59,946 nt of DNA from a virus: positions 1 to 59,946 of the IMG/VR virus record IMGVR_UViG_3300031753_000008; one strand, 5' to 3'. The notes beneath the pieces were generated by a model that was not told where the DNA came from, made no database searches, and worked only from the letters and a program-made list of their open reading frames with translations. Both the position numbers and the translations under genes were made by a program. Below are positions 7,252 to 55,622 of the stretch, piece after piece (the stretch's first letter is position 1; the number at the start of each line of letters is the position of its first letter).

Positions 7252-7683
7252 ATGAACCGCGAAGCGATCATGCAGGCGCTGCTGACCCTGGTCAGCGAGA
7301 GCGCCGGGTTTGTCACGATCGGCCGCCGCCTCGAATGGGTCGCCAAGGTCGCCGGGCTGCCGGCGCTCTATGTGATCGCGACCGACAACGAGTACCAGCA
7401 GCACGGCACGACCTTTCCGCCGCGCCGCACGATCGGCGCCGAGATCTGGGTCTATGCCGCAACCGACCTGCAGCAGCCGCCGGGCGCCCAGCTCAATCCG
7501 CTGATCGATGCGATCGAGGCGGCCTTGGGCGTCATGCCCGGCCAGGCGCAGACCCTGGGCGGCCTCGTCGTCCATTGCTGGATCGGCGGCGACGACGGGC
7601 AAAAGGCGCGGATCGAAATCTTTGAAGGCCATGCTTCGAGCCGTGCCGCCGCCATCATCCCGGTGAGGATCCTCGTGCCATGA
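7252..7683 (+). CDS. tail terminator-like protein
   Basis: A 143-residue protein preceded by an AGGGGAGG ribosome site. Its size, order (after the gp10-like gene and before the tail tube gene) and mixed alpha/beta pattern with an N-terminal helix (IMQALLTLV) fit the tail terminator that caps the tube and joins it to the head. The stop overlaps the next ATG by 4 bp. Function is inferred mainly from position. Confidence 0.65.
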   Translation: MNREAIMQALLTLVSESAGFVTIGRRLEWVAKVAGLPALYVIATDNEYQQHGTTFPPRRTIGAEIWVYAATDLQQPPGAQLNPLIDAIEAALGVMPGQAQTLGGLVVHCWIGGDDGQKARIEIFEGHASSRAAAIIPVRILVP

Positions 7684-39385: not shown

Positions 39386-40546
39386 CTAGCACCGAAAGGG
39401 GCGGCTTTCCTTGGCTTTTGGGCCGCTATCCGCTGTCCCTGTGCCGGGTTTTGTGCCGGTGACCGCCGCCTGCAGGTGCTCATTTTCCAAAAACGCGTAA
39501 ATCTGCTCGGTCACCAGGACCGACGAATGCCCGAGCCACCGGCCGACTTTCTCCATGCTCATGCCGTGCTCTTGCAACAGCCGACAGCCGCAGGTTCGGC
39601 GCAGATCGTGCCAGGTCAGCGGCGGGATCTTGGCGCGCCTTGCGGCGCCGGCGAGGCCCTTGTTCATCGCCTTGTAGCGCTCGCCGGTGTCGCCGTTGAT
39701 CAACACATAATCCGAGCGTAGCTGCGCCGGCTTTTGTGCCAGGATCGCGCGCGTCCGGGGCAACAGCGGCACCTCGCGGGCGCGGCTGTTCTTGCTGGTG
39801 TCCTCGCTGACTTCGATCGCGTTTTTGTCGAGGCGGAGAACCGGGCCAGAAGCGGCCAATCGACCCCGGCGCAGCGTGAATTGTTCCCCCCGCCGCAACC
39901 CGGTATCGATGGCGATGGCGATCGCGTCGGCAAGGTCCTGCGATCCGTGACGATCGGCCGCCGCCGCAAGCAGCTTTGCTTCTTCCTCGATCGACAGATA
40001 CCGCCGGCGCGGCGCCGCCTCGCGCAGCCCGCGCTTCTTTGCCCGCTTGAGATAGCCCGCCACCGGGTTGAAATCGCACCATTCGAGCTCAATCGCGAAC
40101 CCAAACATGCTCGATAGACAGGCGAAGTCGCGGCGTATGCCGCCGGCCGATATTGCCTTCGGGCGCCGCTTGCCTCTCATCCCCTCGGGGATACGCACGC
40201 CCTCGCGCCTTCGCCCGGTCTCGAATTCACTGAGCTTGGCGCTGGTGATTTGGTCGAGGTAAAGGCCCTCGAAGCCATCGGTCAGCGCGTCAAGCGAGAC
40301 GGCGTAGCGTTTGGCGCTGCTTGGCTTTAGCCGGGGCAGATGCTCGTCGATAAACCGAACCCCGAGATCGTCGAAGGTGCGGCGAGGGCGCTCACCAAAG
40401 GCGACGCGGTCCAGTTCTTCGAGCCAGGACCTCAGGCGCCGGCGCGCAACTTCTTTAGCCGTTGTCTTAAGGGACCGGCGGAGATCACGGCCTTTACGCT
40501 GGACACGTCCCCACCAGACCCCGCCGCGCTGATAGAGGCCCGCCAT
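39386..40546 (-). CDS. int: tyrosine-recombinase integrase
   Basis: A 386-residue integrase (ATG at 40546; an upstream start at 40573 adds 9 residues). N-terminal arm-binding domain, core-binding SAM-like domain about 55-160, catalytic domain about 185-360 with R218 (TGLRRGE), H313 and R316 (HDLRRT), H340 (GHSS) and nucleophile Y350 (EQIYAFL). It recombines attP at 39333-39380 with attB in a host tRNA-Gln gene. Its 5' end overlaps the Xis-like gene. The C-terminal end is low complexity. Confidence 0.95.
   Translation of the reverse strand: MAGLYQRGGVWWGRVQRKGRDLRRSLKTTAKEVARRRLRSWLEELDRVAFGERPRRTFDDLGVRFIDEHLPRLKPSSAKRYAVSLDALTDGFEGLYLDQITSAKLSEFETGRRREGVRIPEGMRGKRRPKAISAGGIRRDFACLSSMFGFAIELEWCDFNPVAGYLKRAKKRGLREAAPRRRYLSIEEEAKLLAAAADRHGSQDLADAIAIAIDTGLRRGEQFTLRRGRLAASGPVLRLDKNAIEVSEDTSKNSRAREVPLLPRTRAILAQKPAQLRSDYVLINGDTGERYKAMNKGLAGAARRAKIPPLTWHDLRRTCGCRLLQEHGMSMEKVGRWLGHSSVLVTEQIYAFLENEHLQAAVTGTKPGTGTADSGPKAKESRPFRC
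39440..39456. repeat. 17-bp repeat flanking attP, copy 2
   Basis: Differs from the copy at 39241-39257 at one base. It lies in the 3' coding end of int. Confidence 0.5.
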
Positions 40547-40734
40547 TCTTTCGTCCTCTGTCCATCCCACCATCGCCAGAACAGCGCTTCGTCAAAGCGC
40601 CACGCCCCGCCTTCGCCCGCTGGCTGGTAGGCGCCCGGTATCTTGCCCGCCGCCGCCATCGCGGTAAACCAGCGGCGCGAGAGCCCCGTGGCGCGCGCCA
40701 GCGACGCGCTGCTGACGTGGCCGCGATCAGGCAT
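40432..40734 (-). CDS. excisionase-like small HTH protein
   Basis: About 100 residues from an ATG at 40734. The N-terminal part (HVSSASLARATGLSRRWFTA, then GKIPGAYQPAGEGGAWRFDE) fits the winged MerR/Xis-like fold that reads as helix-turn-helix plus wing. It lies directly upstream of int and overlaps its start by more than 110 bp, typical for Xis. It would direct excision. Confidence 0.7.
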   Translation of the reverse strand: MPDRGHVSSASLARATGLSRRWFTAMAAAGKIPGAYQPAGEGGAWRFDEALFWRWWDGQRTKEWRASISAAGSGGDVSSVKAVISAGPLRQRLKKLRAGA

Positions 40735-41723: not shown

Positions 41724-42088
41724 TCCGCGGCCTCGGCGATGGGCTGTCGCGGCGGCCTGCGAGCCTCGTGCAATGCCTCATCTCGAGTGCAGCCCTTGCG
41801 GCGAAGCGTTTTGTAGACCTGGAGCTGCGCCGGGGTGAGCCCGCGCAAGTCAACGTTTTTTGCGGCCAACGCCGCCTTGCGGGCGGCCGACATGCGGGCG
41901 CGCACCTCGGGATCGGCCAACGCCGCCTTGCGGGCGGCCGACATGCGGGCGCGCACCTCGGGATCGGCCAACGCCGCCTTGCTGGCGGCCGACATGCGGG
42001 CGCGCACCTCGGGATCGGCCCACGCCGCCTTGCTGGCGGCCGACATGCGGGCGCGCACCTCGGCCGAGCGCTTATAGGTCCGGCTCAC
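41720..42088 (-). CDS. NUMOD3-like repeat protein
   Basis: About 122 residues from a GTG overlapping the upstream stop. Four tandem 17-residue units, each like ADPEVRARMSAARKAAL, match the NUMOD3 DNA-binding motif normally attached to GIY-YIG or HNH homing endonucleases. No nuclease domain is present; the C-terminus (LTPAQLQVYKTLRRKGCTRD) is a helix-turn-helix-like segment. The DNA units are 51 bp and nearly identical. Likely DNA-binding; exact role unknown. Confidence 0.7.
   Translation of the reverse strand: MSRTYKRSAEVRARMSAASKAAWADPEVRARMSAASKAALADPEVRARMSAARKAALADPEVRARMSAARKAALAAKNVDLRGLTPAQLQVYKTLRRKGCTRDEALHEARRPPRQPIAEAAE
41865..42068. repeat. 51-bp tandem repeat, four copies
   Basis: Units begin at 41865, 41916, 41967 and 42018 and differ at only a few bases. 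They encode the NUMOD3-like repeats. Copy number could change by slippage or recombination. Confidence 0.92.
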
Positions 42089-43225: not shown

Positions 43226-43678
43226 CACAGCCCCCATCCGCTTGACGACGAGCACCCGCCGGCGAGCGAGGCCGGGCCGGCCAGGCGCGCCGGCCCGTAG
43301 CGGCGCCGCGGCACGTCGTCGGCAAAGGGCTTGGCCGTCGCCATCTCGGCCGGCCATTCGCCGGCGGGGGCCGCGAGCCGGGGTGCTGCGTGGTTGGCGG
43401 CGACCTTGCGGCGCAGCTCGGTTATGCAGCGCTCGGCGCCGCAGGTCGGGGCGGTGCCGCGCCCAGCGCATCCGGGTAAACCCGACAGCGCGCAGGCAGG
43501 CGGCGATCGCCGCGAAGTCGTCGGGGCTCGGCCCCGTCGCCGCCAGCGCCTTCAGGGTCGCGACATCCTCGTCGCCGACGATGCCGAGCGCATATTTGAA
43601 CGGCGCGCCAAACCCGGCGCCGGGGCCGAACACCCGCAGGATGCCCGAGGTGACCTCGAGGTGGACGGGCGGGCTCAC
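43225..43678 (-). pseudogene. probably frameshifted gene
   Basis: From a GTG at 43678 (overlapping the ERF stop) one frame reads a good protein, HLEVTSGILRVFGPGAGFGA to RAVGFTRMRWARHRP, then turns into Arg-rich shadow sequence. The +1 frame then reads convincingly, TCGAERCITELRRKVAANHA to PRRRYGPARLAGP, and ends exactly at the next gene's start. That second frame has no start codon. One extra base near 43445 would explain it: sequencing error, true mutation, or programmed shift. The joined product would be about 149 residues; family unknown. Confidence 0.6.
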
Positions 43679-44448
43679 GACTGCCCCTCCCGCCTGGCCT
43701 TGCGCGCCATCAGCAGGTTGATCGCCACCGGGTAGGCAGCCTGCTGAATGTCGGGCAGCGCCTCGACATTCAGGGTGCGGCAGAAATCGTCGAGATTGAC
43801 CGCCAGCTCGCGCATCAGGTCGGACAATTCCTTGACCTGCTCGGCGCTGATGTACTCGGCCCCGCCCTTGGCGCCGTCGTCGTCCTCGCCCTCGAAGACG
43901 AGGTTGAGCAGCATGCGCGTCGTGTAGCGCTGCCCGTAGGAAGCGGCCGACCCGCCGGCCTGCAGGTTGTTCTTGCCGCCCGAGGTATCGAGCGGCAGCG
44001 GGATCGAGGCCGAGCGGCTGTGCCCGTCGACATGCAAGAGGGTGCCCGAGCACAACAGCCGCCCGTCGCCGCCCGACGGGCTGTCGAAGATCAGCGAGAA
44101 GCCCTCCGCGATCAGCAGCGGGCGGATCGCCGCGTCGATGTCTTCCCAGCGCGCGAATGGGATCGATGAGCCCTTGCCGCCGCTCTTGCCCGGATACGCG
44201 ATCTTGCCGCGCCTCGTGATCCGGGGCAGCCGAGCCTGCAACCGGGCATAGGCGGCGTTGAAGGCGGCGCGCGCCTGGTCGGCCTCCAATTCGCGCTGCA
44301 TGCGCAGGAGCGCCTCCATCTTGGCGACGTCGACCGCCGGGTCGGTCGCCGCCCGCGCGATCAACGCCAGCATCGTCGCCGGCGTGGCGCGCCCCTCGGC
44401 GGGCGCGAGGTCGCGCCCGGCTTCGATCAAATCAGCCGTCTCTGCCAT
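43675..44448 (-). CDS. ERF-family ssDNA annealing protein
   Basis: A 257-residue protein with an AGGGGAAGA ribosome site before the ATG at 44448. Signatures of ERF recombinases: QRELEADQARAAFNAAYARL, then IPFARWEDIDAAIRPLLIAE, and QAGGSAASYGQRYTTRMLLN. It anneals complementary strands after resection by the exonuclease at 42085. Together they form the phage recombination system. Confidence 0.93.
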   Translation of the reverse strand: MAETADLIEAGRDLAPAEGRATPATMLALIARAATDPAVDVAKMEALLRMQRELEADQARAAFNAAYARLQARLPRITRRGKIAYPGKSGGKGSSIPFARWEDIDAAIRPLLIAEGFSLIFDSPSGGDGRLLCSGTLLHVDGHSRSASIPLPLDTSGGKNNLQAGGSAASYGQRYTTRMLLNLVFEGEDDDGAKGGAEYISAEQVKELSDLMRELAVNLDDFCRTLNVEALPDIQQAAYPVAINLLMARKARREGQS

Positions 44449-44644
44449 CGTCTTCCCCCTTCTCCTCGAACAGCGGGCCGGCCTCGACCGCATGCGTCGC
44501 GTCCCACGCGTCGAGCACGGTCAGCCAGCGCCGCAATTCCGCACCGGTGGCGCTCTGCCTCCCGTGCGTCTTGACCGTCGCCTCGGCATGCGCGGCGGCG
44601 GCGCGCGCGATGCGCCGCAGGATCGCGTGCTCGGTGAACCTCAC
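44432..44644 (-). CDS. small helical protein
   Basis: A 70-residue protein from a GTG at 44644 (RFTEHAILRRIARAAAAHAE), overlapping ERF by 17 bp. Mostly helix, acidic C-terminus. No family recognised. Confidence 0.6.
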   Translation of the reverse strand: MRFTEHAILRRIARAAAAHAEATVKTHGRQSATGAELRRWLTVLDAWDATHAVEAGPLFEEKGEDDGRDG

Positions 44645-44811
44645 GGGTGACAGCTCGGATCGCCGGCGTGCTGGGCGCACCAGGCCTCGTGCGCGTCCCT
44701 TTGCGCCATCTGGTAGCCGACATAGCCGCCGATCATCAGCGGCACGCAGCCGCCCAACCCCCACATCAACAGAGCCGCCAGCAGCAAGCCGCGCGCAAAT
44801 TTCCCAATCAT
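44641..44811 (-). CDS. small lipoprotein
   Basis: A 56-residue protein. N-terminal hydrophobic segment LLLAALLMWGLGGC ends in a lipobox with Cys at residue 22; a Gly-rich helix and short Cys-containing tail follow. It is made early or in the leftward operon and could act in superinfection exclusion. Overlaps both neighbours. Confidence 0.62.
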   Translation of the reverse strand: MIGKFARGLLLAALLMWGLGGCVPLMIGGYVGYQMAQRDAHEAWCAQHAGDPSCHP

Positions 44812-45014
44812 GGCGCGGTCTCCTCCTCGAGCGTCGGCTGGACGTGAGTGCAATCGAGGCACAGCGCATAGCCGCGCGGTTTGGGCGCCACCTCGGCGGT
44901 GAGGTCGATCCGCTCGAACTCGCCGTCGCGGTATTCGGCCCAGGCGATGACCTGGACCGCGAGCCGCCCCGAGCCGCAGCGCCGGCACCCGGCCCGGACG
45001 GTGTGGCGCATCAT
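44808..45014 (-). CDS. small zinc-ribbon protein
   Basis: A 68-residue protein with two Cys pairs, CRRCG and CLDC, 40 residues apart, a zinc-ribbon pattern. No catalytic domain. Overlapping starts and stops place it in the leftward operon. Confidence 0.62.
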   Translation of the reverse strand: MMRHTVRAGCRRCGSGRLAVQVIAWAEYRDGEFERIDLTAEVAPKPRGYALCLDCTHVQPTLEEETAP

Positions 45015-45142
45015 CCGATGGCCGCGAGAAAAAACGCGAGCAGCAGCCAGATGACCGAGAGCGCCATGACGGCGCCCATCGCCAGGCGCAGCGTCCGCAG
45101 GCGCTCGCCCCGCCGTTGCGCTTGCCCGGCATCCCAACTCAT
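45011..45142 (-). CDS. small membrane protein
   Basis: A 43-residue protein with a charged N-terminus and one C-terminal membrane helix (AMGAVMALSVIWLLLAFFLA). Overlaps both neighbours by 4 bp. Function unknown. Confidence 0.55.
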   Translation of the reverse strand: MSWDAGQAQRRGERLRTLRLAMGAVMALSVIWLLLAFFLAAIG

Positions 45143-45330
45143 TGCCGGCTCCCCAAGTGCCAGCCGCCGCAATGCGGGCAGCGATAGGCCGCGCGAGGGC
45201 GCTCGCCGCGGCGGCGGGCCGCCTTGCTGGCGCGCACCTGCACGCGGTGCGCGAGGGCCGGGCTGGGAAACCGCTTCTTGCCGGCGCACCCCGCCTGGCG
45301 GTGCCAGGCTTCTCCGGTAGAGCGGCTCAC
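45139..45330 (-). CDS. small basic zinc-finger-like protein
   Basis: A 63-residue protein from a GTG. Strongly basic, with a CxxC near its end (YRCPHCGGWHLG) and another Cys near residue 15, a pattern frequent in small phage proteins of actinobacterial and proteobacterial phages. Probably nucleic-acid-binding. Confidence 0.62.
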   Translation of the reverse strand: MSRSTGEAWHRQAGCAGKKRFPSPALAHRVQVRASKAARRRGERPRAAYRCPHCGGWHLGSRQ

Positions 45331-45632
45331 CGGTGCGTCTCCGGCACCGGCTCGATCATCAGCCGGTAGGTCTTCCCCGTGCCGAGCAGCTCGAAGACGA
45401 GCGTATGCCGGCCGCTCGCGACATAATCGGTCGGGACCGATACATCGGCGCGGCGGGCGAACCGCAGCCCCTCGACCTCGAACACGCCCGCGCGCCGGAT
45501 CGCGGCGGCAAAGGCGTCGGCGTAGCTGGTGATCCCGGCCAGTCGCCGCTGGTAGGCCTCGTGATCGCGCTGGCGCGCTTCGGGCGTGCCGTAGAGTGCC
45601 GCTTCCGCCGGCGACAGCCGCAGGTCGCTCAC
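45327..45632 (-). CDS. hypothetical protein
   Basis: A 101-residue protein from a GTG (SDLRLSPAEAALYGTPEARQ) with helical first half and beta-rich second half (VFEVEGLRFARRADVSVPTD). No family recognised. Overlaps both neighbours, so co-translated. Confidence 0.65.
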   Translation of the reverse strand: MSDLRLSPAEAALYGTPEARQRDHEAYQRRLAGITSYADAFAAAIRRAGVFEVEGLRFARRADVSVPTDYVASGRHTLVFELLGTGKTYRLMIEPVPETHR

Positions 45633-45958
45633 GACGCCACCTCGTGGCGCAACAGCGTTTCGACCCGCGCCGAGAGGAGCGCCATCGTCTGGGAGGCGCC
45701 GTGGAGCTCGCCGATCTCGGCGGCGACCGCTTGCGCCAAGGCGGGCTCGCCGGCGAGCCGCAACGCCGCGGCCGCCTGGTCCAAGACCTGGTTGCGCAGA
45801 TACCCGATGCGGGGCTCCTCGCTCGCGGCATAGAGCCGGGCCGCCGCCGTCGTCAGGTGCCACTCGCGGGTGTCGGGCAGCGCGCGTCTCAGCGCCGGCA
45901 GCACCGCCGGCGCCGCGTCGCTCTCAACTTCGGCCGCTGTCGGTTTTTTCGATGCCAT
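45629..45958 (-). CDS. first gene of the leftward operon
   Basis: A 109-residue helical protein (EPRIGYLRNQVLDQAAAALR) with an excellent GGGGGAGAG ribosome site. It is the first gene behind the leftward promoter and its operator. In lambda this position holds N, but no Arg-rich antiterminator motif is visible here. Function unknown. Confidence 0.68.
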   Translation of the reverse strand: MASKKPTAAEVESDAAPAVLPALRRALPDTREWHLTTAAARLYAASEEPRIGYLRNQVLDQAAAALRLAGEPALAQAVAAEIGELHGASQTMALLSARVETLLRHEVAS

Positions 45959-45996
45959 CGCACTCTCCCCCTGCCCGCGTGGTTGCGTTCGATGTC

Positions 45997-46025
45997 GTCA
46001 TACGGAAATACCGTACGATGGTCAA
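45997..46025 (-). promoter_or_regulatory. leftward early promoter (PL-like)
   Basis: On the minus strand: -35 TTGACC (46025-46020), 17-bp spacer, -10 TATGAC (46002-45997). The spacer contains the 13-bp operator. The same layout recurs at the rightward promoter 48049-48077. It would drive the leftward operon from 45958. Confidence 0.75.
46001..46015. promoter_or_regulatory. repressor operator OL
   Basis: Perfect palindrome TACGGAAATACCGTA apart from the central three bases. The 13-bp core ACGGAAATACCGT is identical to the operator at 48060-48072. It lies in the promoter spacer and over the -10 edge, so bound repressor would block transcription. A related half-site TTTCCCGTATGG follows at 46031-46042. 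Confidence 0.78.
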
Positions 46026-46091
46026 CCCATTTTCCCGTATGGCGGCAGAAATAAAAGTTCCCCCAGACTTTTCGAGAAAGGGGGAAAGCCG

Positions 46092-47216
46092 ATGGCGGGG
46101 GATCCGATTTGGGTGGGGTTCGGCGCCGCCGCTCTGGCTGCGGCCGGTCTCTATTTCGCCCGAAGAGCGCGCCGCGCCGCGCCGAAGCCCGGGGAGACGC
46201 CCACAATTCCCCGCTCGACCGAGGCGCCGGCGGAAAGCGAGCGTCCACACGCGAGCGTGGGGGAAGAGCCAAGCTGGCTCGTCGCGATGCCTCGCTACGT
46301 GCTCGCTCTCGACGTGGAAACCACCGGGCTCGAGGACTCGGACCGGATTGTCAGCGCCGGGTTTATCTTGCTTAACACTCGATCGCTGGCGACCGAATTC
46401 GTAGACTTAAAAATCAACCACCTGATTTTTGACCCGGGCAGGCGCAGCCATCCGGTTGCGGAGCGTATCCATGGCTACCGCGCCTCGGTCCTGGCTCACC
46501 AAGAGGCCTTTTCGGCCGAGCTGGCTGAGGTTTGCGAGCTGATCGACGCCAGCGACCTCATCGTTGCCCACAACGCCGATTTCGACATCCGCTTTCTCGA
46601 CCGCGAGCTCACGATGGCCGGTCGCCCGCTTATCGCCAAGCCGCGTTTTTGCACGATGACCGAATGGCGCGAGCGGGCGCTCACGGATTCTGCCTCGCTC
46701 CAGGCGGTTGCGCGATATCTCGGTCTCGCGCGGCGCGGCGGCACCCACAACGCGATCGAGGACGCGTGGCTGGCGTTGCGAGTCTACCTGCTGCTACGCG
46801 GGTGTCCGATCGCGGTGGGCTTTGGCCCAATTGCGGCGGCGGCGGGCGATCCGCTAAACTTTCATCCCGTTCCAGATGATGAAGCGCCAATCTCCGGGCA
46901 GCATCTTGCCGACGTGATGGCTGCCGCCAGACGCAGCGGAGACTATGCCGCCGCCGAGCAGTTTCTTTTGGAGCGAATAACCAGAACAGAAGGGGCGGCC
47001 CGTAGCTCGCATGTGGCAGTGCCCTTTCGGGCCTATGGCGTTATGGCGAGTATTCAGCGGCGGCAGAGGCGGTATGCGGCCGAGATCGAGGTGCTGACGC
47101 GATATTGCGACATTCAGGGCGAGCTCGGCTACCCGCCAGCTTTGACGGCAACGCAACGGCTGAGCCGAGCTCGCACGCTCGCCGAGCGCGCCGGGGTGAC
47201 GCCTTTGAGGCTGTAG
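46092..47216 (+). CDS. membrane-anchored DnaQ-like 3'-5' exonuclease
   Basis: A 374-residue protein with a GGGGGAAAG ribosome site. Residues about 5-23 form one membrane helix. Residues about 68-235 are a DEDDh exonuclease of the DnaQ/RNase T type: D74 and E76 (LDVETTG), D163/D165 after AHNADFD, H219 and D224 (HNAIEDAW). The C-terminal 130 residues are helical (TPR-like pattern RRYAAEIEVLTRY). It lies between the leftward promoter and the repressor gene, on the opposite strand to both units, an accessory (moron) position. It could be a lysogen-expressed defence or DNA-metabolism factor. Confidence 0.8.
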   Translation: MAGDPIWVGFGAAALAAAGLYFARRARRAAPKPGETPTIPRSTEAPAESERPHASVGEEPSWLVAMPRYVLALDVETTGLEDSDRIVSAGFILLNTRSLATEFVDLKINHLIFDPGRRSHPVAERIHGYRASVLAHQEAFSAELAEVCELIDASDLIVAHNADFDIRFLDRELTMAGRPLIAKPRFCTMTEWRERALTDSASLQAVARYLGLARRGGTHNAIEDAWLALRVYLLLRGCPIAVGFGPIAAAAGDPLNFHPVPDDEAPISGQHLADVMAAARRSGDYAAAEQFLLERITRTEGAARSSHVAVPFRAYGVMASIQRRQRRYAAEIEVLTRYCDIQGELGYPPALTATQRLSRARTLAERAGVTPLRL

Positions 47217-47306
47217 GGCGGCGTGACGCTCCACTTGCCTGAAGGCGATAGGCGCTGAACCCAAACGCGTAGCGCGCACCAGCAGGTCGTGCGCCGGCCG
47301 TTGCCT
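47217..47306. other. convergent intergenic gap
   Basis: About 90 bp between the convergent exonuclease and repressor genes. No strong hairpin followed by a T run is seen. Confidence 0.4.
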
Positions 47307-47999
47307 TCATACCCATTGCCACTTTCCAAGAACGCGGCCCTCGATGCCGGCTTCGTCGAGAGCGGACTCGTAAACGCTGTAGCGCGGGTTGTCGGCGCTG
47401 ATGCGCACTCGCGGCGGGTTCGAGCCGACGACCAGCTCGACGCGCTTGACGACGTGGCCGACGCCGTCGAACAGCACAAAAATTCCGGGCGGGCTCGGTT
47501 GGCGGTCGCTGACATCGACCATGATGCGTTCATACGGGCGAAACGTGGTCTCCATCGAATCCCCGACCACGGTCATGATGCGGATTTGCCCCTCGGCCGC
47601 GTCGGTTGCCGCGCGCAAGAAGTCCTTTGGCATCTGCCACGCGTTCCCGCCACCGCCGCTTGGTTCTTCTAGGCCGTTTTCCGCGAGCTCGCGCGGCCTT
47701 TGCTCGCGAATTATTGCCATCCCGACCGACGTTAACGAAATCGGAAAATCGCCGCCTAAGGCAAGAACCCGGTCGCGGGGGATTCCCCGCTGCTCGAAGA
47801 TCGGCACCAGCTCCTCTACGAGCTTTAGCGGCAAGCGCTCTTCCTTGAATTCGTCTTCGTAATATTGATAGCTGCTTTTCGGGCGTCCTAATTTGTCCGC
47901 GACTTGCTGTACGCTCAGGCCCGCCTCCCTCGCCAGCGCCTTGAGCGCTGGTCCGGCGCCGCCGCGCCGGGGACGGTTATTTAATTTGCTGTCCGCCAT
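47307..47999 (-). CDS. S24-family CI-like repressor
   Basis: A 230-residue lysogeny repressor. Residues about 15-60 form an HTH (LKALAREAGLSVQQVADKLG, then RPKSSYQYYEDEF). Residues about 135-225 are a LexA/S24 peptidase domain with Ser148 in VVGDSMETT and Lys185 in HVVKRVE. No clear Ala-Gly cleavage pair is seen in the linker (85-130), so induction may not rely on self-cleavage. It faces the Cro-like gene across the operators and should bind ACGGAAATACCGT sites at both early promoters. Confidence 0.9.
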   Translation of the reverse strand: MADSKLNNRPRRGGAGPALKALAREAGLSVQQVADKLGRPKSSYQYYEDEFKEERLPLKLVEELVPIFEQRGIPRDRVLALGGDFPISLTSVGMAIIREQRPRELAENGLEEPSGGGGNAWQMPKDFLRAATDAAEGQIRIMTVVGDSMETTFRPYERIMVDVSDRQPSPPGIFVLFDGVGHVVKRVELVVGSNPPRVRISADNPRYSVYESALDEAGIEGRVLGKWQWV

Positions 48000-48035
48000 C
48001 GCCGAATTTGACCAGCCTCGCCGAGAGCGCGCCGT

Positions 48036-48048
48036 ACGAAATTACCGT
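48036..48048. promoter_or_regulatory. second, variant operator
   Basis: ACGAAATTACCGT matches 11 of 13 bases of the operator core. It lies between the repressor start and the rightward -35, as a secondary site like lambda OR2/OR3 would. Confidence 0.55.
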
Positions 48049-48077
48049 TTGACGACCGGACGGAAATACCGTATGGC
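48049..48077 (+). promoter_or_regulatory. rightward early promoter (PR-like)
   Basis: -35 TTGACG, 17-bp spacer, -10 TATGGC (48072-48077), just upstream of the Cro-like ATG at 48087. The operator fills the spacer and overlaps the -10. Same layout as the leftward promoter. Confidence 0.75.
48060..48072. promoter_or_regulatory. repressor operator OR
   Basis: ACGGAAATACCGT, identical to the core at 46002-46014. Binding here would shut the rightward early promoter in the lysogen. Confidence 0.78.
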
Positions 48078-48086
48078 CCTTCGCCC

Positions 48087-48311
48087 ATGAATGTCGCTCA
48101 AAAAATCGCCGCGCGTTTTGGCGGGCTGAACGCGATGGCGCGCGCCGGCGGCTGGCCGGTCACGACGGTGCAGCATTGGTGCAGCACTGGCTTTATCCCG
48201 GCCCAGCGCCAGTACGAGGTCTTGCAGGCAGGCGCGTCGCTCGACCCGCCGCTGAGCCCGGCTGATCTGATCTCTGGCGAGGTCCGTGTCGCCGAGGATG
48301 CGCCGCGATGA
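48087..48311 (+). CDS. Cro/YdaS-like HTH protein
   Basis: A 74-residue protein. IAARFGGLNAMARAGGWPVT followed by TVQHWCSTGFIPAQRQYEVL is the YdaS/Cro-type helix-turn-helix found as Cro-like antirepressors opposite CI genes. It is the first rightward early gene and would repress the repressor promoter. The next ATG overlaps its stop. Confidence 0.83.
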   Translation: MNVAQKIAARFGGLNAMARAGGWPVTTVQHWCSTGFIPAQRQYEVLQAGASLDPPLSPADLISGEVRVAEDAPR

Positions 48312-48529
48312 CGGCGAGCCCGCAAGAGAGCGCGCTGCGGCTGGACTGTCTGCGGCTGGCGGTGGAATCGGGGCGCTATTACCTCGCCGATGATCGGGCG
48401 TCCGCATCGGGCGAGATCGTGGCGCGGGCGCAGGCGTTTTACGATTTTGCGGTCAGGGGTGCTGCAACGGCCCCGGTGGCCGGCAAGGCCCCCGAGACAG
48501 CGGCTGCCGGACATTCTCGAAGTGATTGA
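48308..48529 (+). CDS. small early protein
   Basis: A 73-residue helical protein (ALRLDCLRLAVESGRYYLAD). Overlaps the Cro-like stop by 4 bp. No family recognised; often a CII-position gene, but no HTH is clear. Confidence 0.6.
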   Translation: MTASPQESALRLDCLRLAVESGRYYLADDRASASGEIVARAQAFYDFAVRGAATAPVAGKAPETAAAGHSRSD

Positions 48530-49305
48530 CGATCCCGCCCGACGGCATGGGGCCGCTCGACCGGGCGGCGAGGATCGCGTCGAGGCGCCGTGGCGCCAAA
48601 GTCATGCCGGCCGCTCTCGCAAAGCGGCCGGCAGCACAGCTCGAGCGAGCGTTGGGGGAAGGTGGGCGCGCGGGCACCGTGCTCGAGCGGGCGGCTGGCC
48701 GAAGGGGGAATTTCGGCCGCCGGCAGGCCCGCGCGCCACATCGTCGGTCTTGTTTTGGCTTGGTCAACTCCTTTGCTGCGCTGTGGTTCCACGCCCTGAA
48801 ACTGGCGTGGAAAGATTCCGTGCGCGCAGAATTTTCACCCGCGAGCGCGGAATTTTCGTCCGCGAGCGCGGAATCCCCGCTGCCGCCGTCAGCGGAGCCT
48901 GCCGTGGCGTTTACCGCTGAGGTCTTCACCCCCGAGGCGGTGCGGGCCGAGCTGTCGGCCCGGATCCGTGAACTCGTCGAGGCTTCCCCCGGCCTGACCG
49001 TCAAGGCGCGGCTGCGCGCGGCGGCCCGTGCGCTGGGTCTGCCGCCGGGGCGCGTCACCCGCTTTTTTTATCGCGAGGTGCGCCGGGTTGAAGCCCACGA
49101 AGCCGACTGGATCCGCTATCGCGCCGCCGCGGCCAAGCGCCGGCGGCTCGCGGCACTCGAAAACGAATACGCCGCACTCGTCGCCGAGCTGGTGGCCGAG
49201 GCTCCTCTTGGCCTGGCTCATCTGGTGCCGCCTCGCCTGGGGACGCCGACGGCGGGCGCGGCAGAGGGCGCGCCGCGCGCGCAACAGAAGGAGGGGGAGC
49301 GATGA
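48526..49305 (+). CDS. DNA-binding-like early protein, start uncertain
   Basis: Up to 259 residues from a TTG overlapping the upstream stop. The first about 95 residues read as Arg/Ala-rich low complexity and may be non-coding; a GTG at 48820, preceded by GGAAAG, would give about 162 residues. The reliable part has tandem SAEFS repeats, then a helical domain with HTH-like segment (GLTVKARLRAAARALGLPPG, then RVTRFFYREVRRVEAHEADW) and an Arg-rich coiled region. Likely a regulator or replication accessory. Confidence 0.6.
   Translation: MTIPPDGMGPLDRAARIASRRRGAKVMPAALAKRPAAQLERALGEGGRAGTVLERAAGRRGNFGRRQARAPHRRSCFGLVNSFAALWFHALKLAWKDSVRAEFSPASAEFSSASAESPLPPSAEPAVAFTAEVFTPEAVRAELSARIRELVEASPGLTVKARLRAAARALGLPPGRVTRFFYREVRRVEAHEADWIRYRAAAAKRRRLAALENEYAALVAELVAEAPLGLAHLVPPRLGTPTAGAAEGAPRAQQKEGER
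48826..48885. repeat. near-identical 20-bp repeats GCGGAATTTTC
   Basis: Three units of about 20 bp begin with CGC(A/G)GAATT or CGCGGAATC, encoding the SAEFS-type repeats of the early protein. They might double as a binding site; evidence is weak. Confidence 0.4.
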
Positions 49306-50066
49306 CGATAAGCGCCGCTGCGCGCGGCGAATCGGGATTGCTCGAAATTCGGCTGCGCCGCGACCCCGAAGGGCTGGGCGCGGGCGCCGGCCCCGCAGCT
49401 CGTGCCGACGAGGGGGATCGGCGCTGCGGGGCCGCTACCTTTTTGCCCGCTCGGGGGGAAGAGCGGGCGTCGACTGAAAGGAAGTCAGTCATGGCGGAAA
49501 TGGGAGACGGCTCGGCCGCCGTCAACATCGGCAAGCTTTCCGGCCTGGTGCAGCGCATCGAAGCGAAGAAACAGAACGCCGACGACGTGCGCAGCGACTT
49601 GGGCAACCTCTACCAGGAGGCCGAGGATTACGGCTTCAACCGGGCGGCGCTCAAGATGGCGCTCAAGCTCAAGCACATGGAGGACGACAAGCGCAACGAC
49701 TTCCTCGCCTGCCTCGCGACCTATTGCGACGTGCTGGGCGTGTGGGCGCAGGGCGACCTCTTCGGCGATCAGCCGCGCACTCCGCAGCCCCGCGACCCCG
49801 GCCTCGTCGAGCTTACGCCCTATAGCGAGGGGGTGATCGCCGGCCGCGCCGGCGAAGCCGCCTCGCGCAACCCCTACCCGGAGGGTGGGGCGCAGAACGA
49901 GGCGTGGCGCGACGGCTGGACCGCGGCATTCGCGGCGCAGTGCGAGCGCCCGCCCGACGCCGCCGAGCCCGAGCCCGATCCGCCAAAGCGCGGGCGCGGC
50001 CGCCCGCGCAAGGCGGCGAACGGCGCGGCAAACCTGCGCGACGCAAGCCCGGGCGGCTCGGCATGA
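49302..50066 (+). CDS. GapR-like (DUF2312) nucleoid-associated protein
   Basis: 254 residues from an ATG with strong AAGGAGG site and ATGA overlap; an inner ATG at 49491 with GGAAG upstream gives 191 residues. The conserved part is LSGLVQRIEAKKQNADDVRS, then LYQEAEDYGFNRAALKMALK, then LKHMEDDKRNDFLACLATYC, which is the GapR/DUF2312 core. GapR binds overtwisted DNA and guides topoisomerases in Alphaproteobacteria. The C-terminus is Pro/Lys/Arg-rich. The N-terminal extension, if translated, has no known counterpart. Phage copies may organise phage DNA. Confidence 0.78.
   Translation: MTISAAARGESGLLEIRLRRDPEGLGAGAGPAARADEGDRRCGAATFLPARGEERASTERKSVMAEMGDGSAAVNIGKLSGLVQRIEAKKQNADDVRSDLGNLYQEAEDYGFNRAALKMALKLKHMEDDKRNDFLACLATYCDVLGVWAQGDLFGDQPRTPQPRDPGLVELTPYSEGVIAGRAGEAASRNPYPEGGAQNEAWRDGWTAAFAAQCERPPDAAEPEPDPPKRGRGRPRKAANGAANLRDASPGGSA
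49389..49468 (+). other. two hairpins before the inner gapR-like start
   Basis: A 10-bp stem GGCCCCGCAG/CTGCGGGGCC (49389-49398, 49424-49433) followed by CTACCTTTTTG, then an 8-bp stem GCCCGCTC/GAGCGGGC (49445-49468). The first could terminate transcription; both lie in front of the inner start at 49491 and may control GapR-like synthesis. Confidence 0.5.
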
Positions 50067-50245
50067 GGCCGATGGGCTTCTACCGGCGCGGCAAAGTGCG
50101 GGCGCGGCCGAGCGCGCAGCAATTGGCGGCAGCGGCCGCGCTATTCGGGCCGCGACCGAGCAAGCCGATTTCGGAGCAACCTGCGGCCGATGACCCGGGC
50201 GGGCCGGCAGTGCCCACGCCTCCGGATGGGGAGGAGGCCGCATGA
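50063..50245 (+). CDS. small basic protein
   Basis: A 60-residue protein (MRPMGFYRRGKVRARPSAQQ) with Pro-rich acidic tail. Overlaps the gapR-like stop and the next ATG. No family recognised. Confidence 0.6.
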   Translation: MRPMGFYRRGKVRARPSAQQLAAAAALFGPRPSKPISEQPAADDPGGPAVPTPPDGEEAA

Positions 50246-54873: not shown

Positions 54874-54901
54874 CTGTGACGCGCTCGGAACGGCGTTACA
54901 G
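54874..54901. repeat. inverted repeat at the serine recombinase start
   Basis: CTGTGACGC (54874-54882) and GCGTTACAG (54893-54901) form an imperfect inverted repeat with one mismatch, spanning the recombinase GTG. It might be the recombinase's own site or an operator. Its left arm contains the iteron motif GTCACA in inverse. Confidence 0.45.
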
Positions 54902-55622
54902 GTGCGCAAGAAGCTTGTCGGCGCCCCCGGTTTCGGGGCCGCGCTTTGTCGCCTATTTCCGGGTTTCGACCGATAAGCAGGGCGCCTCGGGGCTGGGGCT
55001 TGAAGCGCAACGCGAGGCCGTCTCCCGCCATGTAGGTGCTGCGGGCGGGCTCGTCGTCGCCGAGTTCACCGAGGTCGAGACCGGCACCCGAAAACGCCAC
55101 CGGCCGCAGATGATGGCGGCGCTGGCGGCATGCCGGCTGAGGCGCGCCGTCTTGGTCATCGCCAAGCTCGATCGGCTGGCGCGCAACGTCCATTTCGTCT
55201 CGGGGCTGATGGAAGCCGGCGTCGAGTTCGTCGCATGCGACAACCCGCATGCGACGCGCGTCCTGGTCCACATCATGGCGGCCTTTGCCGAGTACGAGGC
55301 CGAGGCGATCTCGCGCCGCACCAAGGAAGCCTTGGCCGCCGCCAAGGCGCGCGGCGTCAGGCTCGGCAACCCGCATTTGAAGCCCGGCGACCGTTTCGGC
55401 CTGGCGCGTGCGGCGCGGCGTGCCCGTGCGGTGCGGGCGCAGGAGCGCGCCGCCGACGTGATGCACTTCATCGCTGCGGCGCAAGCCGCGGGCTGCGCCA
55501 GCCTCGGCGAGATCGCGCGCGCTTTGACCGCGCGCGGCATCGACACCCCGGGCGGCGGCCATGAGTGGCGCGCCGAGCAGGTCAAGCGAGTCATTCAACG
55601 CGCGGGGGATGCGAACCGGTGA
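54876..55622 (+). CDS. serine recombinase (resolvase/invertase type)
   Basis: About 248 residues. Catalytic Ser31 in FVAYFRVSTDKQG, then LVIAKLDRLARN with the conserved Arg residues, VLVHIMAAFAEYEAEAISRR and the linker helix; a C-terminal HTH (SLGEIARALTARGIDTPGGG, then EWRAEQVKRVIQRA) binds DNA. Small serine recombinases invert or resolve DNA. The phage already has a tyrosine integrase, so this one may control a switch or resolve multimers. No inverted crossover pair was identified. Confidence 0.9.
   Translation: MTRSERRYRCARSLSAPPVSGPRFVAYFRVSTDKQGASGLGLEAQREAVSRHVGAAGGLVVAEFTEVETGTRKRHRPQMMAALAACRLRRAVLVIAKLDRLARNVHFVSGLMEAGVEFVACDNPHATRVLVHIMAAFAEYEAEAISRRTKEALAAAKARGVRLGNPHLKPGDRFGLARAARRARAVRAQERAADVMHFIAAAQAAGCASLGEIARALTARGIDTPGGGHEWRAEQVKRVIQRAGDANR

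Follow-up and report, generated by a model that had tools for sequence, protein, structure and literature searches.

The stretch of viral DNA analysed here, hereafter the window (59,946 nucleotides), very probably carries the immunity cassette of a temperate tailed phage, in which a repressor would act on a 13-bp operator lying in both early promoters, in the manner of the CI/Cro switch of phage lambda. Its sequence largely supports the assignment of a new immunity group with a new operator sequence. The architecture of the cassette is textbook lambda. The operator sequence, the clade-wide form of this operator and the natural exchange of the cassette between two close phages appear to be unreported; six of the 13-mers were sought in open-literature text, a scope that leaves aside most subscription journals and figure-only sequences, and none was found. 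A sequence-only reading of the window had proposed a complete CI switch with a new operator. The CI-type switch and the new operator are well supported by the divergent genes, the exchanged cassette of a sister virus and the operator form shared by a repressor clade, whereas the word complete overstated the case, as no third operator was found at either OR or OL.

The 13-mer ACGGAAATACCGT occurs in two exact copies in the window, OL1 (46002–46014) and OR1 (48060–48072), each located between a TTGAC −35 element and a −10 element, on opposite strands. Both copies were recovered by a promoter-anchored blind scan, and OL1 also fits the operator form of the repressor clade discussed below. The putative leftward early promoter, pL (45997–46025, minus strand), is composed of TTGACC (46025–46020), a 17-nt spacer and TATGAC (46002–45997). 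Its putative rightward counterpart, pR (48049–48077, plus strand), is composed of TTGACG (48049–48054), a 17-nt spacer and TATGGC (48072–48077). These hexamers, spacers and positions match the sequence-only reading base for base. That reading had also placed a 13-bp palindrome inside both spacers; the sites are indeed present, but only 12 of the 13 bases fall within the spacer, the final T being the first base of each −10, and the palindrome is gapped (ACGG-N5-CCGT), with a core that is not self-complementary. The variant it had noticed at 48036 was borne out as ACGAAATTACCGT (OR2, 48036–48048), which differs from the 13-mer at two positions and adjoins the rightward −35, 24 bp from OR1; sequence, copy count and a scan for paired layouts all point to this site. 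No further copy with up to two mismatches exists elsewhere in the whole window. At the left end, the paired-layout scan gave a weak candidate for a degenerate OL2, ACGGGAAAATGGG (46027–46039, minus strand), which adjoins the pL −35, lies 24 bp from OL1 and retains a single good half-site. Because the −10 hexamers are weak (TATGAC and TATGGC agree with TATAAT at 4/6 and 3/6 positions, respectively), pL and pR are missed by a standard sigma-70 scan.

The CI-type repressor (47307–47999, minus strand) is a protein of 230 amino acids with an N-terminal XRE helix-turn-helix (HTH) and a C-terminal S24 domain. Its S24 match reaches 24.2 bits against a Pfam cut-off of 23.3, its N-terminal HTH stays below the cut-off, and it matches the phrog_4 transcriptional repressor (5.9e-15). 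Alignment with homologues and lambda CI indicates that the Ser-Lys catalytic dyad is kept, with Ser148 in GDSM and Lys185 in VVKRV. At the Ala-Gly position preceding S24, most homologues have a sequence of the A-[SGA]-A-G type, whereas the window repressor has AENG, within a linker whose alignment is uncertain. SOS induction and cleavage of this repressor may be weak or absent, because the dyad is kept but the Ala-Gly motif at which cleavage usually occurs seems to be lacking. Protein scans of viral and genome contigs with the repressor confirmed no relative, and a PDB sequence search gave no match. A single-sequence structure model of the repressor was discarded as unusable (pLDDT 45.5).

As had been proposed, the repressor and Cro-like genes flank the rightward set of sites, the XRE-S24 repressor and a Cro-fold protein diverging around OR. 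The latter protein (48087–48311, plus strand; 74 amino acids) has weak P22_Cro and YdaS matches and a predicted model (pLDDT 84) whose top PDB structure matches are the Cro proteins of Xfaso 1 and N15; P22 Cro is also among the structure matches, with modest E-values. On the basis of predicted fold and position, it is probably Cro-like. The pR −10 is so close to the cro ATG as to suggest that the cro message has almost no leader. First in the leftward operon is a gene for a protein of 109 amino acids (p109; 45629–45958, minus strand), located just outside the exchanged cassette and without a family match among Pfam and PHROG profiles; recombination genes of the ERF and YqaJ types follow. The cassette also holds, between OL and the repressor, a cargo gene for a DEDDh (DnaQ-like) exonuclease (46092–47216, plus strand; Pfam RNase_T 5.4e-13, phrog_192 4.1e-30, PADLOC DEDDh). 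This gene occupies the rex position of lambda, diverges from pL and bears a weak likeness to PADLOC candidate PDC-S48; it may serve the lysogen in defence or exclusion. Elsewhere in the record, a 254-aa ORF (49302–50066) combines a GapR-like DNA-binding domain, a ribosome modulation factor domain and a weak AT-hook, and a tyrosine integrase and a serine resolvase/recombinase are encoded (39386–40573 and 54876–55622).

In a lysogen, the repressor, presumably dimeric, would bind the 13-bp operator and occupy O1 in the pR spacer and O2 beside the −35 at OR, and O1 in the pL spacer, perhaps together with the degenerate O2, at OL. RNA polymerase would thereby be excluded from pL and pR, so that neither cro and the other rightward genes nor the leftward p109-ERF-YqaJ genes would be expressed. 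Upon loss of the repressor, both promoters would fire and the Cro-like protein would take over. The sites and their positions, the genes, the exchange of the cassette and the agreement with the clade operator form can be seen in the sequences themselves; repressor binding, cooperativity, promoter activity, the action of Cro on the same sites and the specificity of immunity are inferred. Cooperative pairing of O1 and O2 is plausible because their 24-bp spacing is that of lambda OR1 and OR2 (37998 and 37974, compared with 48060 and 48036 in the window). In lambda (NC_001416, OL-rexB-rexA-cI-OR-cro), cI and cro likewise diverge around an OR that overlaps pR, the operator recurs in a second region, OL, located at the leftward early promoter, accessory genes separate OL from cI, and the repressor is of the HTH plus S24 type. 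In contrast to the three 17-bp operators at each of lambda OR and OL, an arrangement particular to lambda, the window's operators are 13 bp long and differ in sequence, with two at OR and, at OL, one clear and one doubtful; its repressor also seems to be without the usual Ala-Gly motif. The telomere phages N15 and phiKO2 (immB) have a lambda-like layout with three operators at OR and two at OL, and PY54 has one such site (PMC4488713). Although N15 Cro resembles the predicted Cro-like protein in structure, no sequence relation of N15 or phiKO2 to the window repressor or operator was seen.

A sister virus, L003 (IMGVR_UViG_3300031823_000015), carries a different cassette in the same place. By blastn, its DNA is about 90% identical to the window over 43665–45991 and 48288–50108, and nothing aligns between 45991 and 48288, which shows that the whole immunity cassette (45992–48287) has been replaced as a unit. 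The flanking proteins are nearly the same (98% identity for p109, 93% for p73 and 96% for YqaJ). The left breakpoint falls just past pL, 6 bp downstream of its −10 and close to where transcription would be expected to start, and the right one at the 3' end of cro. In L003, the repressor place is taken by a 258-aa protein whose N-terminus is HTH-like and the Cro position by a different small protein (phrog_7669). The L003 operator, TGCGGA-N6-TCCGCA in its best copies, is present at five sites (four with an exact GCGGA-N6-TCCGC core and one with a mismatch in one arm), three of them between the divergent repressor and Cro-position genes and two before p109. TTGACC and TTGACG (the latter with its 17-nt spacing) occupy the same places as in the window's pL and pR, and two of the L003 operators follow them, in the spacers, as the 13-mer does in the window. 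The window operator is absent from the L003 cassette at up to two mismatches, with one three-mismatch match at 7442, and the L003 operator is absent from the window. Judged by sequence, the cassette is exchangeable as a unit with its own operators, as in a lambda-type switch; the two viruses would represent a natural heteroimmune swap and are expected to be heteroimmune. The cargo differs too: directly downstream of the L003 repressor, at a site equivalent to that of the DEDDh gene, L003:6299–6757 matches phrog_1039, immunity to superinfection. Both viruses also share a 51-bp tandem repeat (41863–42063 in the window; 3.9 copies, 98% match) with an internal inverted repeat in each unit.

The scan of relatives for the 13-mer that the sequence-only reading had proposed did not recover the same operator. 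The same layout with other operators was seen in L003 and in two further loci. When the blind scan was applied to viral loci carrying related ERF or YqaJ genes, it returned one pair from L005 (GATGGGA-N4-TCCCATC) and one from L040 (TGCGA-N3-TCGCA); both pairs flank a gene for a small HTH protein and a small divergent gene. In both L003 and L005, a second, imperfect operator can be read adjoining the pR −35, as in the window. The signature was not seen in most other ERF- or YqaJ-related loci, which may use other layouts or may not include the region in the stretch compared. Protein scans with the repressor and a search with the promoter-anchored operator pattern found no same-operator relative in viral and genome contigs; the pattern had no other match in viral contigs, and a nucleotide search of phage records returned nothing. 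Exact 16-mer matches in viral contigs L041 and L042, where no relative of the repressor is present, were set aside as chance.

The form of the operator follows the HTH of the repressor. The window repressor HTH was searched against alphaproteobacterial genomes, and the ACG-N7-CGT form, with the A/T core seen in the first loci, was set down before later loci were fetched. Each locus was scored by its best-matching 13-mer within 330 bp upstream of the repressor gene, with at least 10 of 11 pattern positions required. The form ACG-N-W5-N-CGT, where W5 is (A/T)5, lies upstream in 31/45 HTH-clade loci, the window included, compared with 62/575 control segments (11%); the clade loci are partly related to each other, which makes p-values optimistic. 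When one locus was kept per HTH cluster, 15/21 had the form, as did 19 of the 26 loci fetched after it was fixed (L107–L132). Where a related S24 domain was joined to a different HTH, 3/27 repressors had it. By our own definition of the clade, the window belongs to it, having both the clade HTH and an upstream 13-mer of this form. The paired layout, operator-TTGAC-operator with starts 22–25 bp apart, was found 16 times near clade repressors (16 kb), in every case on the strand that diverges from the repressor, and once in 120 kb elsewhere. Outside this clade, three loci (L051–L053) illustrate domain shuffling, in which the S24 closest to that of the window repressor (54–59% identical) is combined with an L003-type HTH (47–48% identical to that of L003); their upstream DNA, as read, has a GGATA/TATCC-type site beside TTGAC and not the ACG form.

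This dependence on the HTH bears on the alternative that the Cro-like protein is the main or sole reader of the 13-mer while the S24 repressor acts elsewhere. In lambda-type phages, Cro and CI bind to shared operators (PMC4488713), and the cassette swap, which exchanges repressor and Cro together, cannot by itself separate the two. However, the operator form is enriched with the clade HTH and not with related S24 domains joined to another HTH, which makes this alternative improbable. Many of the loci are bacterial chromosomes, where a neighbouring Cro may or may not occur.

Less probable still, the sites might be genuine regulatory elements that belong to a host regulator or to a LexA-like box shared with the host. 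A regulator with the clade HTH was present in 17/17 sampled genomes of one alphaproteobacterial order (L099–L102 and L120–L132), which suggests that a host regulator of this class is conserved and makes host cross-talk conceivable. Against this, L003 combines the same promoters with a different operator and a different phage repressor, which a host regulator would not predict, and the 13-mer is confined to the immunity cassette within the window.

The blind scan also weighs the arrangement against chance. It sought TTGAC with a gapped palindrome in the spacer, repeated with the same arms on opposite strands 0.3–6 kb apart, and its single pair in the 60-kb window is OL1/OR1. Some repeated 13-mer arises in 45/300 shuffles of the cassette, and repetition alone was consequently dropped as a sign of significance; palindrome counts without a promoter anchor, swamped by GC-rich noise, were also abandoned. 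The signature was found in 4/37 real sequences (the window and related loci), against 0.05 expected from shuffles. A palindrome repeated by accident near TTGAC words, as the cassette shuffles might suggest, is hardly credible when any pair in the full arrangement appears in 1/300 whole-window shuffles and the sister-cassette and clade comparisons stand independently of that result.

Repressor recognition of the 13-mer, the preferred reading, might be extended, tentatively, to individual operator positions. The locus closest to the window in operator form, L119, has ACGGAATTTCCGC and GCGGGAATTCCGC upstream, 24 bp apart. Its recognition helix reads YAFYE and that of the window YQYYE, compared with the common YQHYE. 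A Y or F before 'YE' accompanies G at operator position 4 (the window and L119, the two cases from which this link is drawn), and H mostly accompanies T or C. Azospirillum phage Cd (CU468217) encodes a repressor (gene 04) whose HTH is 41% identical to that of the window repressor and which has three ACG-N7-CGT 13-mers around its start; it differs in its inner bases and in its size (183 amino acids as annotated, as a hypothetical protein/HTH regulator), and the match is limited to the HTH. For Caulobacter XRE factors, ChIP motifs have been published as a figure (PMC10688885). A broader proposal, in which an alphaproteobacterial clade of phage and chromosomal XRE regulators shares one operator grammar, with position 4 set by the residue before 'YE', and in which the window repressor has additionally lost its self-cleavage site and is released other than by SOS, is tentative and, taken as a whole, rather doubtful. 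If true, it would make immunity groups predictable from sequence.

The window would add a new immunity specificity that comes with a clean natural control, namely two close phages with different immunity cassettes, and it ties one class of repressor HTH to a defined form of operator in many bacteria. For the poorly studied alphaproteobacterial prophages, it would thereby become possible to predict and test both the targets of repressors and the superinfection groups, and the repressors and their operators are candidate orthogonal pairs.
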